NCBI RefSeq assembly: GCF_023023025.1
Contig: NZ_CP095481.1
Location: 2,046,001-2,110,000 of the forward strand
DNA length: 64,000 bases
Source: Amycolatopsis sp. WQ 127309
GTDB lineage: Bacteria; Actinomycetota; Actinomycetes; Mycobacteriales; Pseudonocardiaceae
Direction: 5' to 3'
Shown: positions 55,226 to 62,951 of the stretch, in pieces
Numbering within the stretch: position 1 is the stretch's first letter
How the letters are laid out: each line of letters begins with the position of its first letter
Notes under the pieces: model-generated
Told to the model about the DNA's origin: nothing
Seen by the model: the letters and a program-made list of their open reading frames with translations, nothing else
Database searches by the model: none
Translations under genes and position numbers: made by a program

Positions 55226-55698
55226 TCAGAACCAGCCGGTGAGGATCTGCTGCCCGTTGTGGTAGCCCCCAGCCCGGAACACCCAGCTCGTGCTCGGGTT
55301 CGTCAGCTGAGCCGCGGAAGTGATGCTGGCCTTGTTCTTCGGATTACCGAAGGGACCACACTGGAGCCAGGTTCGACCACCGTCACGTGACCAGTCCATC
55401 CACACCGTCCCGGACACTGGCACGTTCCAGGTTCCGTTCCAGAGCTCGGCATACCCGCGGGTCCGTCCACCGAACGTGCCGAAGAACAGGTTCACCCGGG
55501 TCCCGTCAGACCAAAGAGCTCAGGTCCGACCGGGCGGTAGTCGGCGGCACCATCGTCCGAAATGTCGACGAAGCCGTTTGCCCCACCGGCACAGTCGGCT
55601 GCACTCGCGGATGCAGTCCCCACGGGGACAACGATCGCAGAGGCCAGCGCAGCCACCACGGCTGCGGCCACTGTCACCTTGCGCGAAATGATTCCCAT
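55226..55698 (-). pseudogene. Frameshifted small secreted protein gene
   Basis: The first part (from ATG 55698, GAGGGG upstream) codes a signal peptide KVTVAAAVVAALASAIVVPV and ASAADCAGGANGFVDISDD, then stops at 55492. The second part, in another frame, codes ALWSDGTRVNLFFGTFGG, WMDWSRDGGRTWLQCGPF and FRAGGYHNGQQILTGWF. Together they look like one 155-residue secreted protein of the kind common in actinomycetes. Loss of one base near 55516-55521 would explain the break (GAG GCT becoming GAGCT). A GTG start at 55495 overlapping the stop could instead allow coupled translation of the second part. Confidence 0.7.
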
Positions 55699-55730: not shown

Positions 55731-56249
55731 TCAACAGCCGACAGAATCAGGAAAGCGCGAACTCATCGACATCAACAATTCATCACTGGCCCCACCGTCG
55801 ATTTCAACGTAGGGCTGTTCACCTTCGTGTTCGGCCCAGAATGTCTGGCTGCCAACCCACTCTGGATCTTCGGTGAACGACCTGGAAATCGTGATGAGCG
55901 CCGTTACCACCGGCGCGTCCGGAACACTCCGGAGCTGATCCAGAGCAGCTCGGCTCACTGCGCAGGCCCGGCGAAGCAGCCGTGCCGCCCGCTCCTCACC
56001 GCGCGGGAAGTCCAGGTCGTACACCGCGCGGCCGTTCACCGCCGCTTCGTACCCGGTCAGGTCGTCGAACGCCGCGCGCCGCCCCGAATAGGACCTCCGC
56101 AGGGCCGCGAGCACCCAGGCTCCGTCCCCTTCCCGAACCCAGCCCGCATCCAGAAGTTCACCGGCCCGAGGCGGCAAATCCACCGAAGTGACAGTGTCCA
56201 GTTTCGCTCGCGTGGCCAGTTCACGCATCGCGTCAGTCATGATCACCAC
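55731..56249 (-). CDS. Probable immunity protein for the RHS toxin
   Basis: A 172-residue acidic, soluble protein without a recognised domain. It starts within a few bases of the end of the RHS gene, the standard place of an immunity gene. Phrases are TVTSVDLPPRAGELLDAGWV, AALRRSYSGRRAAFDDLTGY and AALDQLRSVPDAPVVTALIT. GTG 56249 has GGGGA upstream inside the toxin gene; a later ATG (56240) is possible. Base use is a little lower in GC than the backbone. The assignment rests on position only. Confidence 0.6.
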   Translation of the reverse strand: MVIMTDAMRELATRAKLDTVTSVDLPPRAGELLDAGWVREGDGAWVLAALRRSYSGRRAAFDDLTGYEAAVNGRAVYDLDFPRGEERAARLLRRACAVSRAALDQLRSVPDAPVVTALITISRSFTEDPEWVGSQTFWAEHEGEQPYVEIDGGASDELLMSMSSRFPDSVGC

Positions 56250-56252
56250 GGG

Positions 56253-59200
56253 TCAATTCCCCAGAATCTTGAGTCCTTGCTGGATTCCACGCTGGAACCC
56301 AGGGTCACTGGCGAGTTGCTTCGCCAGCTTGCTCGGCAGCCCTTCGAATTCGCCGGTTTCGAAATTGTACTGGCACTTGGGAATCTTGCCGCTCTGGTCC
56401 TGGAAGTGCAGCTGGCCCGCACGCTGCCCGGGATTCGGGTTCTCGACGTCGATGCGGTACTGCCCCTTGTTCCAGGTGGTCGTACTCGTTGTCCGCGTGC
56501 CGTTCTGGCCGATCATGGGCTTCTTCGGAGAACTTCCCGATCCCCCACCGGAGCCCCGGCCCGAGTTGGCTGCGGCGTAGAGCCCACCTGCCAGACCGAT
56601 CCCGGCTGCGGCCCCGGCACCGGCGGCCGCAATTCCGGCACCGGCGCCGACGAGCACGCTCCCACCGCCGACCACCGCGACCAACCCGAGACCGCAGGGC
56701 TCGGCCACGAAACAGATTCCCGCGCCCAGTACGGCCCCCGCGATCCCCAGCCCGGTCGCCAGGTCCCCCCAGAAGCTCAGACCGGTGACATCGGTGAAGG
56801 TGGTCGGGTTCCCGCCGGCGTACACATAGGGCTGGCGGGTCTTCGACACCAACGGATCGACAGTCAAGAACTGCGCGGTAGCCGGGTCGTAGTACCTCGC
56901 CCGTAGGTACAAGAAGCCGGACTCGGCGTCGACGTACTGGCCTGCGTACTGCAGCGGCGACGTCAGGGCACCCGACGCGGTCGCGACGCCATAAGGCGTG
57001 TAGGCGTAGGTTCCCCCGAGAGCACCGGCCGCGGTGAGCAGTCCGACGGTGGAACCGAGCTGGTCGTGCACGAAAAACGCGATCCCACCCGGCCCCATCT
57101 GTTCGATCGGCAGGCCATCGGGTCCGTAGAGGTAGCTCGACGCCCCGTCGGAAAGCAGGCTCGGGACCTCCGCACCGTCCCAGACGTACGCGGTCGTCGC
57201 CGTCCCGACTGTCTTGGCCGCCCGCAGGCCGTCCCCGTTGTAGCGGTAGGTCGCCGTGCCCGTGACCGACGTCAGCCGGCCGGCCTGGTCGTAGCTGTAG
57301 GTCTTCGCCCCCGCCTTCGTGCGGTTGCCCAGTGCGTCGTAGGAGTACGTCGTGCTCCCGCCCGGAGCGGTCACGCAGGTGGGCGACGCGGCGGTACCAC
57401 TGGAAAGATTCCAGCAGAGCCTGCCTGCCGCGTCGAAAGCCTGAGTGGCGGTTCCCACCTTCACGGGGTTGTCTGCGGCGTCGTAGGTGAAGCTCGCCGC
57501 GCCGGCCGACGCCAGCTGCTCCCGTTGCGAGTAACCGAAGGCCTGCTGCGGCCCGGAGCCGACGGTTTGGGTGGACAACTGGCCTGCGTTGTCCCGGCCG
57601 TAGGCCAGGGCCATCACGGTCGTGGTCCCGGTGACCGCGGTGGTACCGGTCAGTCCGCTTCGGTCGTCGTAGGTGTTGGTGATGGTCGTGCCGTTCGGGT
57701 ACGCCGTCGTCCGCGGCTTGCTGGTCTTGGTGTAGCCGAAGGTGGTGGTGTTGCCACTCGTGTCCGTCACCGTACGCAGGCGCCCGGCGTCGTCGTAAGT
57801 GCGCGCCACCGGCTTGGTTTGACCCGGATACGTGGTCGCGGTCTCGTTGCCGTTGTCGTCGTAGCCGTGGAAGACGGTGGCGCCCGAGCCCTGTTTGGCC
57901 GCGGTGAGTTCGCCGAACGTGTCGTAGGTCCACGTCGACGTCCCGGTACCGTCGGTCATCGAGACCCGGCGGCCCGCCGCGTCGTAGCCGAAGGTCACGT
58001 TCGGCGTCACCCCGTCGGAATACGACAGCGACGTCGTCCGCCCCACCGTGTCGTGGGTGTAGGTCGTGACGCGGCCGGCCGCGTCGGTGACGGTCTTCGG
58101 CCATCCTGCGGGGTCGTAGACCGTGGTCGAGACGCTGTTGTCCGCGTCGGTCCGGCTCGTCTGCCGCCCCTGCCCGTCGTAGCCGTACCGGGTCACCGCC
58201 CCGAGACCGTCCACGGTGTCGGAGACGGTGCCGTCGAGGTTGTAGTGGGTGAGCCGGGTGGTGTCGTCCGCCTGGGTCTCCTTGATCAGGTGCCCGTCCC
58301 CGTCGTAGACGCTGGCCGTGGTCCGGCCGTTCTCGTCCGTCGCCGACAGCACCAGGCCATCCGCGTCGTATCCGACCGAACTGGCGTGGCCGAGTGCGTC
58401 GACCGTCTGCGTACGCCTCCCGTGCGTGTCATATTCGTAGGTTGTGGTCTTCCCTTCACCATCCACCGTGGATGTGAGGAATCCGCGAGCGGTGTCGTAG
58501 CCGTATCCAGTCCGGTCGCCGGCCGGGTCGGTCGACGACGTCACGTTGCCAAAACCGTCGAACGTCGTCGCGGTCGTCTTGCCCAAAGCGTCGACGGCCC
58601 GTGTCCGGTCGCCGGGATGTGCCGCGTCGTCGTAGAAGAAACCGTTGGTGCGCAACGGTTCCGAGCCAAAGTTGCCGGTGGTCGACTCGACCACGTTATT
58701 GGCCTTTGTGACAGTGGTGGTCGTGAGCACGCGGAGCCCGCTCACCCCAGTGGGCAGGTGATCCGCCTGGTCGTAGGTGTTCACCGTGGCGACGCCGTCC
58801 GGAGTGATGACTTCGACGACATTGCCGGCGTCGTCATAGGCGTAGTTCGTGGTGTAACCCAGCGCGTCCGACGCCGAAATCCGGTTCCCGTGGTCGTCGT
58901 AGGCGAATGTCTGAACACCGCCGTCGGCATCGGTCTGCGTGGTCACGCCCAGCGTGACCGGGTCGTAGGTGTAGGAAGCAGTACCGGCGTCCGGGGTGCC
59001 GTAGCCGCGCGTTTCACTGACCAGCAGGCCGTTCTGGTAGGTCTGCAGGTCCTTGTGCCCGGCCGGGTCGGCCACCAATGTCTGCCCGGCGGAGAGTCCG
59101 CCGTCGGGGCCGTACGTGAATTTGGTGGCGCGTCCGTCGGGGTCCGTTTGGACCGTCACACGCTCCGCGGCGTCGTAGGTCATCGACGTGACCGCCGACG

Positions 59201-62200
59201 CTGGGCCTGCGAAGTTGCCCGGGGTGCGCATGGACGTCATCAGGTGGGTGCCGGATGCGTAGGTGTAGCGGGCGTGGTCGTCGTCGCGCAGCACCGGCGT
59301 CCGGGTGGTACCGACGCCGTAGACATCGGTCAGGTTTCCTTCGGCGTCGTAGCCGTAGGTGACCTGGCGCCCGGTCTGATCGGCCACGGCCGTGACGTGG
59401 CCGCCGGTCCAAGTGAAGGTGTACGTCCGCCCGCCGGGATCGGTCACCGTCGCCAGACGGCCGTTCCCGTCGTAGGCCAGGGTGGTCCGGTATTGCGGGT
59501 TCGCCTTGCTTCCGGGCAGGTCCGCGAGTGCGAGCAACCGGCCGTTGGCTTGGTCGAACATGAAGATCGTCTGCCCACGACGGGTGTAGACGTACGTCGA
59601 ACCGCTCTTCACCAGGTTCGCGTCATAGCGCGGCGCGGCCGGGGCGTAAGCACCGCCGCTATTGACGAAGGTGACCGACGAACCGTCCTCCTGCCGCACC
59701 GTGACGTTACCGGTCGCACCGTCGGTGGTGGCGGACATGTTGTAGGTGAACGTCCAGCCCCAGCCGAACGGTCCATCCGCCGCGAGCGCCTTGTTGGGTC
59801 CGTTCGGGTCGGCGATGCTCTCCGCGTAGCTCCGCGTCACCTCGAGCGGAACACCGCGGCCCGGGGTGTTCAGGTCGGTGAAGTCCTGCCCGAAGTAGCC
59901 CGTGCTCGTGTCGACCGGGTCGCCCGCGGTCCGGCGGACGCAACCGCACGCGATGAACGCCGGGTTGCTGCCCTTCGGCGCGTCCTGAATCCCGGGCGGT
60001 CCCCCGATCGGCGAACCGGGTATACCACCCTGCGGGATGAACGCCACGGCGTCGAACGCGACGTCGTAGTCAGAGTTGTTCACGCCACCGGTCGTGGTGG
60101 AACTGCCGTTGTTGTTCAACGTGACGTTGCCGCCGTTGGTCATCGCGAATGTGCCGATCGTGACCCACTGCTCGGAATTCCAAGCCTGGTTCACGCGGAT
60201 ACGCCAGGGACTGACGCCACCGCCGGGGTTGATGTTGTACACGACGTTGGTCGCCTGTGCGCCGAGCCCGGGGATGTGCAGCTTGACCTTGTAGTACTGC
60301 AGACTGGGCAAGTTCGGTGTCCACGTCCCGGTGTTGATCAAAGCCGGGTTGGTGCCGTCCTCGGTGTGGCTGAACAAGACGTGCCCGCCGAGCCCGGTAC
60401 CGAGCTGATGGGTGTCGATCGCCCCGATCGGATCGCCGGCGGAATTCGTGCCGTAGGCGTAGGTGAAGGTGCCGTTGCTGGTCCAGTTGGCCGCGCCGCA
60501 GCCCTGCAGGTTCAACCGGCTCGGTTCGTCGTCGACGATGATCGCGTTGCCCGCGACCTTGCTGTTGTCCACCGTGCACGTCGGTGGATTGCGGGTCGGG
60601 TTGGCCGGCTCGGACGATCCCGCACTGACCGCGTATCCGCTTGTGGCACAGGTGGTCGTACACGTGCCGATCCACGTGACCGGCTGGTGCCACCAGCACT
60701 GGAAGTCGTCGAGCATGCAATGGCTGGCGCCCGGCGTCGTCGGATTGGTGTTGACGGGATCGCAGTGGTTGTCCGCGCTGCACATCGCCGTGAATGGCGC
60801 GGGCTGCACCCAGTTGTGGCCGCCGTGGTACTCCGGCGTCGCGTAGGCACGCGAGCCGTAGCGCAACAGGGGGCTGGCCATCCAGCCCAGCACACGCTCC
60901 TGGTACGGCCAGCTCGCCGGGTGCGCCGCGTCGGCGTAGGTGTCCTGCAGGTACGGGTCGCGGCTGGGCGGGTAGTCCAGGTTGGCCGGGTTGTTCGTCC
61001 AACCCAGACCCCACGTGCCGTGAGGGCCGGTGCAAGACGGCCCCGGGGTGCACCCAGTCGTGTTGCCGTTCGCGGCGTTCGGCTGGATACCGGAGTTGTA
61101 GGCCCAGGCAGCGAAGTACCAGTTCTCGAGGTACCGCGGGTCGCCGCCGTTGGCCGTGATGCCCGCGGAGTACAGCTGGTTCCAGGTGCTCTCCAGAATC
61201 TGCAGGCCGGCGGCCAGGTTCTCCTGGTAGTCCATCGCGACCTTGGTCTGCCCGTTGACCGAGTAGACGTGGTCGCCGACGTGCATCCCGGTGGTGACCT
61301 GACCAAGGCCGTAACCACAGTCGGAACCGGCGTAGTTGATCGACTTGATGTCACCACCCGCGCCGTAGTAGTCCGCGACCAGCGGTCCGCCCGCGGTACC
61401 GGCCGGAGCGTGCCACGACGCCTGGGACCAGTTCGATTCCTGGGCCACGATCGCCTCGTAGACCGACCTCGGCACGGTGCTCCAGGTACCGCCCGCTGGG
61501 TGTGACAGCGGGATCAGCGGAAAGTCGCCGTTGGGCGCGTAGGCGGCCAGACCCAGGTTGGCGAACCCTGCTGGGCGGGTGTACGTCGAGCCGGTGAGCA
61601 AGCCCTGTTCCGCCATCTGGATCGCCCAGTTCACCTGGGCCGGATTGGGCTGCATGACCTGGCGGTTGGAGTTCAGTCGCGGTACCGCGCACACGGGAGT
61701 CTGGGCAGCCGCGGCGATCTTCGGAGCCGCCACTGCACTCGGAGCGACGTCACCGTGCGGCTCGGGCTTGCCGACCGGGGCCATGGGCGTAGCGGCCGTC
61801 GACGTCGGGGCGTAGCCGGCTGTCGCGGTCGTGGTGCGTGCCGGTTCGGCGGGACGCGCACGAGCGAGCACCTTTCCGGTCCGCGTCGCCAGTACTACCG
61901 GGACGTCCTTGCCCCCGTCTGCGTCCGGACCGGCGAGCGCGTCGCCATCCAAGGACGAAGTGGTTGCGCCCCGCGCGAGGCCGCGATCCGAAACCGCCAG
62001 CAGGTGCGCGGCCGAGAGGGCCTTCGCGTCGGCGGTGGTGGCGCCGGCCAGCACGGCGGCGCCCGCACGCCCCTGGAACAGGTGCACCCGTTCCAGGGCC
62101 CCAGTACCGAGGGAAGTGGTGGTGCCCCCCTTGGCCAGCATCGCGGTCGTCGTGTGCGATCCGGCCTTGGTGTCCAGGTAGGCGACGCCGCCCGGGACCG

Positions 62201-62951
62201 GACGCAGTTCGTAGGCATCCCCGGTGACCTGGGCGACAGATGTGATCCGGGCGTCCTTGTCGATGCCGACCAGTTGCCGCCCCTGCACCCCGACGATGCC
62301 GATGTCGGCTGGGACAGCGGACGTGATCTGTCCCGGCACGGTCACGGAGGCGTCGATCGTGCCGCGGGCGAGATCCGTCTGGAGCAGCCCGGTGTCCCGA
62401 TCGTCGGTTCCGGTGTCCAAGGTGAAGACGGCTTTGTCGCCGGTACCGCAACCCGGCGAGAAGTATTTGAGGCCCACCCCACTGGCCAGCGGGTGAACGA
62501 CACCGTCCGCCAAGTCGACGGAGTACGCGAACGCTCCGTGGTCACGGGCAGCCTGCTGGTTGACCGCCGACCCGGGCAGGATCGCCACCGCTGCGTAACG
62601 GCCGTCGCCGGAGAGACATTGATAGCCCGTCCACGAGGCCTCGTCCCGACCGGCCGGGCGCAGGAGCGCCACCTCCTGCCAGGCGAATCCGGCGGCCTCA
62701 CGCCCCAAGAGCAGGTGGTAGCCCGACGCGTCCCCCCAGCCGTCCAGTGCGACGTCGGGCGAGGCTGCGGCGCCATTGCCGAAATCACCGGCGACGGCCG
62801 CGTTCAGCTTCGCCGGAGACGAAGGCGCGGCCTCCGCGGCCACCGGCTGGACGAGTCCGCCGACCAGCGCGCCGGTGACAAGCAAGACGCCCGCCATGCG
62901 CAGCTTCGACCGTCTCGCCTTCGAGCGTGCACGACTATTAATGCCGAACAT
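56253..62951 (-). CDS. Secreted RHS/YD-repeat polymorphic toxin with lytic transglycosylase domain
   Basis: A 2,232-residue protein. Order: signal peptide (1-41, basic start), propeller-like region (about 45-365), Thr/Ala/Pro linker (365-420), goose-lysozyme/SLT-type domain (about 435-640, Glu505 in AQESNWSQ, GYGLGQVT, AAWAYNSG), golvesin-like beta domain (about 800-975), DUF6531 (1003-1250), then many YD repeats, the RHS core end LYLRARYYDPATAQFLTVDP (near 2015-2034), a Gly/Ala hydrophobic stretch (2058-2122) and a 92-residue tip with KGQYRIDVENPNPGQ and QLHFQDQSGK. The tip is the likely toxin; its activity is not recognised. ATG 62951 has AGAGGGGG upstream. Confidence 0.9.
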   Translation of the reverse strand: MFGINSRARSKARRSKLRMAGVLLVTGALVGGLVQPVAAEAAPSSPAKLNAAVAGDFGNGAAASPDVALDGWGDASGYHLLLGREAAGFAWQEVALLRPAGRDEASWTGYQCLSGDGRYAAVAILPGSAVNQQAARDHGAFAYSVDLADGVVHPLASGVGLKYFSPGCGTGDKAVFTLDTGTDDRDTGLLQTDLARGTIDASVTVPGQITSAVPADIGIVGVQGRQLVGIDKDARITSVAQVTGDAYELRPVPGGVAYLDTKAGSHTTTAMLAKGGTTTSLGTGALERVHLFQGRAGAAVLAGATTADAKALSAAHLLAVSDRGLARGATTSSLDGDALAGPDADGGKDVPVVLATRTGKVLARARPAEPARTTTATAGYAPTSTAATPMAPVGKPEPHGDVAPSAVAAPKIAAAAQTPVCAVPRLNSNRQVMQPNPAQVNWAIQMAEQGLLTGSTYTRPAGFANLGLAAYAPNGDFPLIPLSHPAGGTWSTVPRSVYEAIVAQESNWSQASWHAPAGTAGGPLVADYYGAGGDIKSINYAGSDCGYGLGQVTTGMHVGDHVYSVNGQTKVAMDYQENLAAGLQILESTWNQLYSAGITANGGDPRYLENWYFAAWAYNSGIQPNAANGNTTGCTPGPSCTGPHGTWGLGWTNNPANLDYPPSRDPYLQDTYADAAHPASWPYQERVLGWMASPLLRYGSRAYATPEYHGGHNWVQPAPFTAMCSADNHCDPVNTNPTTPGASHCMLDDFQCWWHQPVTWIGTCTTTCATSGYAVSAGSSEPANPTRNPPTCTVDNSKVAGNAIIVDDEPSRLNLQGCGAANWTSNGTFTYAYGTNSAGDPIGAIDTHQLGTGLGGHVLFSHTEDGTNPALINTGTWTPNLPSLQYYKVKLHIPGLGAQATNVVYNINPGGGVSPWRIRVNQAWNSEQWVTIGTFAMTNGGNVTLNNNGSSTTTGGVNNSDYDVAFDAVAFIPQGGIPGSPIGGPPGIQDAPKGSNPAFIACGCVRRTAGDPVDTSTGYFGQDFTDLNTPGRGVPLEVTRSYAESIADPNGPNKALAADGPFGWGWTFTYNMSATTDGATGNVTVRQEDGSSVTFVNSGGAYAPAAPRYDANLVKSGSTYVYTRRGQTIFMFDQANGRLLALADLPGSKANPQYRTTLAYDGNGRLATVTDPGGRTYTFTWTGGHVTAVADQTGRQVTYGYDAEGNLTDVYGVGTTRTPVLRDDDHARYTYASGTHLMTSMRTPGNFAGPASAVTSMTYDAAERVTVQTDPDGRATKFTYGPDGGLSAGQTLVADPAGHKDLQTYQNGLLVSETRGYGTPDAGTASYTYDPVTLGVTTQTDADGGVQTFAYDDHGNRISASDALGYTTNYAYDDAGNVVEVITPDGVATVNTYDQADHLPTGVSGLRVLTTTTVTKANNVVESTTGNFGSEPLRTNGFFYDDAAHPGDRTRAVDALGKTTATTFDGFGNVTSSTDPAGDRTGYGYDTARGFLTSTVDGEGKTTTYEYDTHGRRTQTVDALGHASSVGYDADGLVLSATDENGRTTASVYDGDGHLIKETQADDTTRLTHYNLDGTVSDTVDGLGAVTRYGYDGQGRQTSRTDADNSVSTTVYDPAGWPKTVTDAAGRVTTYTHDTVGRTTSLSYSDGVTPNVTFGYDAAGRRVSMTDGTGTSTWTYDTFGELTAAKQGSGATVFHGYDDNGNETATTYPGQTKPVARTYDDAGRLRTVTDTSGNTTTFGYTKTSKPRTTAYPNGTTITNTYDDRSGLTGTTAVTGTTTVMALAYGRDNAGQLSTQTVGSGPQQAFGYSQREQLASAGAASFTYDAADNPVKVGTATQAFDAAGRLCWNLSSGTAASPTCVTAPGGSTTYSYDALGNRTKAGAKTYSYDQAGRLTSVTGTATYRYNGDGLRAAKTVGTATTAYVWDGAEVPSLLSDGASSYLYGPDGLPIEQMGPGGIAFFVHDQLGSTVGLLTAAGALGGTYAYTPYGVATASGALTSPLQYAGQYVDAESGFLYLRARYYDPATAQFLTVDPLVSKTRQPYVYAGGNPTTFTDVTGLSFWGDLATGLGIAGAVLGAGICFVAEPCGLGLVAVVGGGSVLVGAGAGIAAAGAGAAAGIGLAGGLYAAANSGRGSGGGSGSSPKKPMIGQNGTRTTSTTTWNKGQYRIDVENPNPGQRAGQLHFQDQSGKIPKCQYNFETGEFEGLPSKLAKQLASDPGFQRGIQQGLKILGN

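Follow-up and report, generated by a model that had tools for sequence, protein, structure and literature searches.

Organization of the locus

We analysed a window of 64,000 nt from Amycolatopsis sp. WQ 127309 (contig NZ_CP095481.1, positions 2,046,001 to 2,110,000), in which two adjacent genes encode a candidate toxin of the RHS type and its candidate immunity protein. The features of the locus, in positions of the window, are as follows.

56253..62951, minus strand: RHS polymorphic toxin gene, 2232 aa (open reading frame, domain matches, start context)
62829..62951, minus strand: Sec-type signal peptide, residues 1-41 (cleavage ...VAAEA/APSS by eye; hydrophobic windows 16-40)
61632..62828, minus strand: N-terminal region, residues 42-440, without Pfam match, common to relatives
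61068..61475, minus strand: SLT lytic transglycosylase domain, residues 493-628 (E505, G546-Y547-G548, Q551, N578, A617-Y618-N619)
60096..60335, minus strand: Golvesin_C-type domain, residues 873-952 (Pfam)
59667..59924, minus strand: DUF6531, residues 1010-1095, with the N-terminal self-cleavage-type motif D1011-PV...TG (Pfam and motif)
56778..59918, minus strand: RHS/YD-repeat cage, residues 1012-2058 (Pfam and NCBIfam)
56778..56858, minus strand: C-terminal self-cleavage motif pair D2032-PLVS and D2054-VTGL, 17 residues apart
56562..56777, minus strand: hydrophobic pre-tip segment, residues 2059-2130 (hydropathy; similar in several siblings with other tips)
56256..56531, minus strand: putative toxin tip, residues 2141-2232, undescribed family, isoelectric point (pI) about 9.7 (profile relatives, structure prediction)
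55731..56249, minus strand: putative cognate immunity gene, 172 aa, pI about 4.7 (family adjoins the tip; acidic)

The reading frame of the RHS gene (62951..56253) is unbroken over 2232 codons, the Shine-Dalgarno-like AGAGGGGG upstream of its ATG at 62951 provides a good ribosome-binding site, and the neighbouring gene (56249..55731) begins 3 nt past its stop. The protein, of about 230 kDa, carries in order a signal peptide, the SLT domain, the golvesin-type domain, DUF6531, the RHS cage, the hydrophobic pre-tip segment and the 92-aa tip. The original prediction had claimed a signal peptide, an SLT domain, a golvesin-like domain, a DUF6531-RHS cage and a 92-residue tip, and this anatomy was borne out by the open reading frame and by Pfam and NCBIfam; the Pfam-less region 42-440, both aspartyl self-cleavage motifs and the pre-tip segment are additions to it. 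The signal peptide was judged by eye and hydropathy: among 19-residue windows, Kyte-Doolittle values of at least 1.6 are confined to residues 16-40 of the signal peptide and to residues 2063-2118. The cage comprises 19 RHS-repeat stretches by Pfam (PF05593, E=4.3e-68), with the NCBIfam RHS core end at residues 1984-2058 (TIGR03696, E=1.8e-19). The source genome (11.13 Mb, one contig) gave one match to the SLT-golvesin carrier region at E<=1e-20.

The tip and its neighbouring gene

The tip is a separate conserved domain, for which 62 further proteins were found as relatives at E<=0.01, and 18 positions are invariant across 19 diverse tips, whose median pI is 9.05. A structure prediction and a profile search against toxin families had been proposed earlier as checks; AlphaFold2 folded the tip with a predicted local distance difference test score of 93.4, and the search returned no credible match in Pfam, NCBIfam, PADLOC or PDB. 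PF21725 is found in 38 of the 63 tip-bearing proteins, most of these being named as putatively secreted by a type VII secretion system (T7SS).

The protein of the neighbouring gene likewise has no credible match to a described family: neither it nor, among precomputed domains, its 17 relatives have a Pfam match, and its best hits in NCBIfam (E 0.14, 12 bits, cut-off 288) and by sequence in PDB (E 0.41; none by profile) are not credible. We built a hidden Markov model (A3) of this family from 13 sequences and ran it on the 5923 open reading frames of all loci then gathered. Matches occurred solely beside the tip family of the window: at 14 of 14 Streptomyces loci, at seven other tip-family loci (six at E<1e-9, L027 at 0.0046), at the sibling locus L052 and at a HINT-type carrier on a Streptomyces plasmid (L086); L009, L010, L025, L028 and L029 fed the model and provide no independent test. 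There was no match in L053-L069, where other tips or none were read (all 16 siblings with other tips gave zero), nor in L071-L083. Since the gene stands beside this tip and not beside carriers of other tips, its distribution tracks the tip in the manner of an immunity gene. The median pI of the family is 4.64. Within the genus the family occurs in 6 of 80 genomes, in one of which (G317) the match reaches only 2e-4 and has a stop inside. All three tip-bearing genomes of the genus have the gene adjacent to the tip, and two (G336 and G254) have the family without the tip, an orphan-immunity pattern.

The pairing of tip and neighbouring gene is thus strongly supported by sequence comparison, and so is the proposal of the original prediction that the next gene is an immunity candidate: the tip is swapped among carriers, the gene follows the tip rather than the carrier, and tips of the colicin-E3 type occur on sibling carriers. 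We infer that the tip is toxic and that the 172-aa protein protects against it.

Members of the two families were also observed in other settings. At L090 and L091 an immunity-family gene occurs in a genome that lacks the tip (orphan immunity). At L028 a tip relative lies in a 169-aa frame with an in-frame TAG and adjoins an immunity-family gene, as an orphan or decayed tip would. On a Salmonella enterica plasmid (L084) an unannotated tip relative is followed by a different small gene and, further on, by a ShlB/FhaC/HecB gene, and its place upstream of the latter suggests an arrangement like that of contact-dependent inhibition (CDI) systems.

The carrier family and exchange of tips

The SLT-golvesin region was matched at E<=1e-10 by 867 of 7988 scored protein candidates. 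The carrier relatives examined are the 120 matches listed of these 867 (P0001 and P0003 included), whose names include ones from Amycolatopsis, Actinokineospora, Kutzneria, Actinoplanes, Frankia, Nakamurella, Kitasatospora and Streptomyces. A core end was found in 109, and their last 95 residues fell into 43 clusters (22 single, one colicin-E3-type); the cluster of the window tip has three members (P0001, P0003, P0135). One of the 11 relatives without a found core end (P0153) carries PF00545, the ribonuclease/barnase family.

At E<=1e-20 the region is present in 22 of 80 genomes of the same genus. Of 298 sampled genomes of the order, 24 have it, cage-less kind included. Carriers of the window's kind amount to 19 full-length matches in 17 genomes, window included, with 73-100% identity in the SLT-golvesin region; this count excludes three short fragments of the same kind (G336 has two of them, G304 one), and the remaining genus matches are a 33-44% identity kind of cage-less proteins. 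We compared 18 sibling loci besides the window's own. Sixteen of them are 61-69% identical up to residue 2058-2173, where the local alignments end, and then continue into a different C-terminus, the 16 tips being of nine kinds by eye. L052 carries the tip of the window protein, to which it is 89% identical over residues 330-2232; L064 is broken into two frames and is the one sibling whose end went unread. Among seven sibling tails scanned, a credible match was obtained in L053 alone (colicin E3 Cytotoxic domain PF09000, E=1.6e-33). By these comparisons the carrier is a putative polymorphic-toxin backbone with modular tip exchange.

Four siblings (L055, L057, L059, L067) share one other tip (SRE..QQ..AW..I..ADR.AWH...LREGL), which had no Pfam match in L055, the one scanned, and appears to be that of a cluster of 13 of the 109 carrier relatives. 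The genes after these four tips encode 158-162 aa and look alike, and tip and next gene may form a second undescribed toxin-immunity pair.

The SLT domain and the proposed delivery module

The motifs of SLT domains are a catalytic Glu, G-Y-G..Q, N and A-Y-N-x-G. These residues, the putative catalytic Glu included, are unchanged in 25 of 25 proteins, and a Pfam SLT match at E<=0.1 was found in 24 of 25 relatives. The Pfam score is 21.6 bits for the whole protein against a curated cut-off of 21.3, and rises to 24.2 bits in a separate scan of a 600-aa part. Automatic annotation already recognises the domain, as the record name 'transglycosylase SLT domain-containing protein' (P0090) indicates. 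The ratio of nonsynonymous to synonymous substitution rates (dN/dS) of the SLT region is 0.024, the lowest among the protein parts compared, all of which are at about 0.28 or less (the tip over residues 2145-2232). Motif residues and profile therefore support the earlier claim of a real lytic-transglycosylase-type domain, and the predicted fold supports it weakly. It is plausible that this domain opens the wall, and we prefer export from the producer as its use.

The same module was found outside RHS proteins. In the same genus, frames of about 1090-1520 codons align with residues about 50 to 980 at 32-37% identity. The ten C-termini of cage-less proteins that were scanned comprise five GDSL lipases (four above the curated cut-off), one ricin-type lectin, one golvesin below cut-off and three without match, and none has an RHS match; a whole-protein scan of L071 gave a sixth GDSL-lipase type without RHS. 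More widely, L071-L083 carry the SLT-golvesin region and have no RHS match; some bear a GDSL-lipase-type or a ricin-type lectin domain, and some occur as adjoining pairs. The occurrence of the region in such secreted-looking proteins suggests that it is a more general secreted-looking chassis, not one specific to toxins, and this favours a role in the producer's wall (export, wall residence or remodelling) over target entry. A golvesin-type domain is also noted in a xanthan lyase and in lectins (PMC9166713).

Putative aspartyl self-cleavage motifs are present at both ends of the cage. The N-side motif, D1011-PVDTSTG at the start of DUF6531, is present in 118 of 120 relatives; the second motif of the C-terminal pair lies within P2049-xxxx-D2054-V-T-G-L2058, in which V replaces P. 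The C-terminal piece predicted to be freed has 174 aa and consists of the hydrophobic segment, a linker and the tip. A window with a mean of at least 1.6 lies within 110 residues after the core end in 89 of 109 relatives, although the tip may account for some of these windows. Several siblings have a similar segment ahead of unrelated tips, and the segment therefore looks like a translocation part of the carrier.

Proposed mechanism and alternative explanations

The protein is probably a polymorphic RHS toxin that is exported by Sec, resides in the wall and brings its own peptidoglycan-cutting delivery module. The following account of transport, events at the target, enzymatic activities and protection is our inference. 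The signal peptide would carry the protein over the producer membrane. The N-terminal module (42-440, SLT, golvesin) would then reside in the wall, where the SLT domain would cut glycan strands locally so that the cage passes or protrudes, with the golvesin domain as a possible holder of sugar. Contact with a neighbour would make the cage cut itself near D1011 and after L2058, and the freed 174-aa piece would cross the target membrane by means of its hydrophobic segment. Once in the cytoplasm, the basic tip would most likely be a nuclease, with an RNase as the first candidate, and the acidic 172-aa protein would bind the tip and protect the producer and its kin.

More tentatively, and with somewhat less than even confidence, we propose a self-sufficient delivery class in Actinomycetota, in which Sec-exported RHS proteins need no secretion machine, a lytic transglycosylase in cis opens the wall, and dozens of tips are exchangeable. 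The tip found here would be a new toxin fold which, together with an immunity family of its own, moves across phyla among Sec, T7SS, HINT and CDI carriers.

An unlikely alternative is that the SLT domain acts on the target side, thinning the wall of an attacked Gram-positive cell so that the C-terminal piece reaches the membrane, with export by Sec alone. Its N-terminal position beside the golvesin-type domain and the strong constraint on the region would fit; however, the region is also found on the GDSL-lipase-type proteins without RHS (5 of the 10 C-termini and L071), which have no obvious need for target entry, and self-cleavage near D1011 would part the SLT domain from the cage.

Several findings weigh against the mechanism proposed above. 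The pI is below 7 in 5 of the 19 tips, and, against the pairing, the immunity model found no match beside the tip relatives at L023 (Paludibacteraceae; the tip match spans just 22 residues), L084 (the Salmonella plasmid) and L085 (a Rhodococcus plasmid), which suggests that other lineages use another partner or none. The Pfam score of the SLT region is borderline, a PDB search with it by sequence gave no match, and its fold model is weak. The last three would suit an SLT-like domain that is a mere wall-binding anchor of an otherwise ordinary WapA-type RHS protein, but the invariance of the putative catalytic Glu and the other motif residues in 25 of 25 proteins and the dN/dS of 0.024 make this quite improbable.

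We give very little weight to a two-headed weapon in which the SLT domain is a second, wall-degrading toxin, as some type VI secretion system (T6SS) effectors cut the wall (a putative one with a soluble lytic transglycosylase domain is named in PMC13324451). Conserved enzyme-type motif residues would agree with it, but the domain is constant and under the lowest dN/dS of the parts compared while the tip varies, the region recurs in proteins without a toxin cage, and a fixed activity against the wall would also hit that of the producer. A decayed or non-toxic RHS relic, or a structural wall protein, is just as improbable: no activity is known for the tip, but the frame is intact, dN/dS is low in every part compared and the neighbour pair is conserved in distant genera. 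Delivery by a type VII (WXG) system, to which the many PF21725-bearing proteins with this tip would point, is the least probable of all, as no PF21725 or other T7SS leader was matched here and a signal peptide with the SLT-golvesin module stands in its place.

Beyond the immunity gene, at 55697..55226 (minus strand), the start of a small secreted protein (signal peptide by eye) runs to a stop at 55492 with a 4-nt overlap with the open reading frame 55495..55226; the two frames are probably a single broken gene.

Comparison with known systems

Exchangeable tips and immunity genes are familiar features of RHS toxins, and PMC3482391 lists many tip families as well as additions that bind peptidoglycan. 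The main text examined of that source does not mention SLT or transglycosylase, one transglycosylase being counted in its full text. Among the open-literature papers listed, none is on SLT-bearing RHS toxins by title and start of abstract, which does not prove their absence from print; golvesin was absent from those listed for any two of golvesin, Rhs and transglycosylase, and golvesin papers were mostly Dictyostelium work. Transglycosylases in PMC12419801 and PMC13324451 were considered as RHS fusions and rejected, being operon neighbours or a putative T6SS effector in the parts available. Within the open literature searched, then, two things are new: a widespread carrier class built on the proposed SLT-golvesin delivery module, and an undescribed family of tip and immunity protein. 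The 18 invariant tip positions are ready targets for functional tests of this family.

Self-cleavage motifs of T6SS Rhs proteins, including the 17-residue spacing, are described in PMC8636562. Photorhabdus Rhs1/Tre23, as presented there, shares with our protein the cage, the PxxxxDPxGL-type end, a motif pair 17 apart and an N-side Asp-Pro motif, but its motifs are DPLGL twice rather than DPLVS and DVTGL, and our Pfam scan gave no PAAR/VgrG-type match. Streptomyces RHS proteins with PF21725 (38 among P0002-P0049) have the same tip family at 59-67% identity, but they have a T7SS-type leader and 1436-1600 aa, with no SLT or golvesin listed; the Pfam scan of our protein gave no WXG/LXG or PF21725 leader. 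Colicin E3 / pyocin S6 Cytotoxic tips (P0084, P0120, P0193, L053, L054) stand on the same carrier, whereas the tip differs and, in L053 and L054, so does the next gene. Pfam SLT (PF01464) lytic transglycosylases such as MltF and phiKZ gp144 are alike in the putative catalytic Glu, the other motif residues and the predicted arrangement, but similarity is low and the domain here sits within a secreted RHS protein.

The WapA-type wall-associated RHS toxins of Gram-positives include the WapA proteins of Streptococcus suis and Bacillus subtilis. In the window protein there was no Pfam match to LysM or other known non-enzymatic wall-binding repeats, so that it may work like WapA without being filed as WapA. 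According to PMC12704120 (2025), on Streptococcus suis WapA, how WapA proteins of more than 300 kDa cross the Gram-positive wall has not been definitively identified. A built-in wall cutter may explain the passage of such giant toxins through thick walls, and a carrier family with a wall-cutting type domain in cis makes the question testable by one point change (E505) in a laboratory actinomycete. WapA-type toxins are alike in signal peptide, wall-directed N-terminus, RHS/YD cage, variable C-terminal toxin and immunity gene; in the place of the LysM/DNRLRE domains and sortase link of S. suis WapA, our protein has a golvesin-type domain and an SLT domain whose motif residues are intact. The window protein is thus best viewed as a putative member of the WapA/RHS kind whose toxin tip and immunity protein form an undescribed family.
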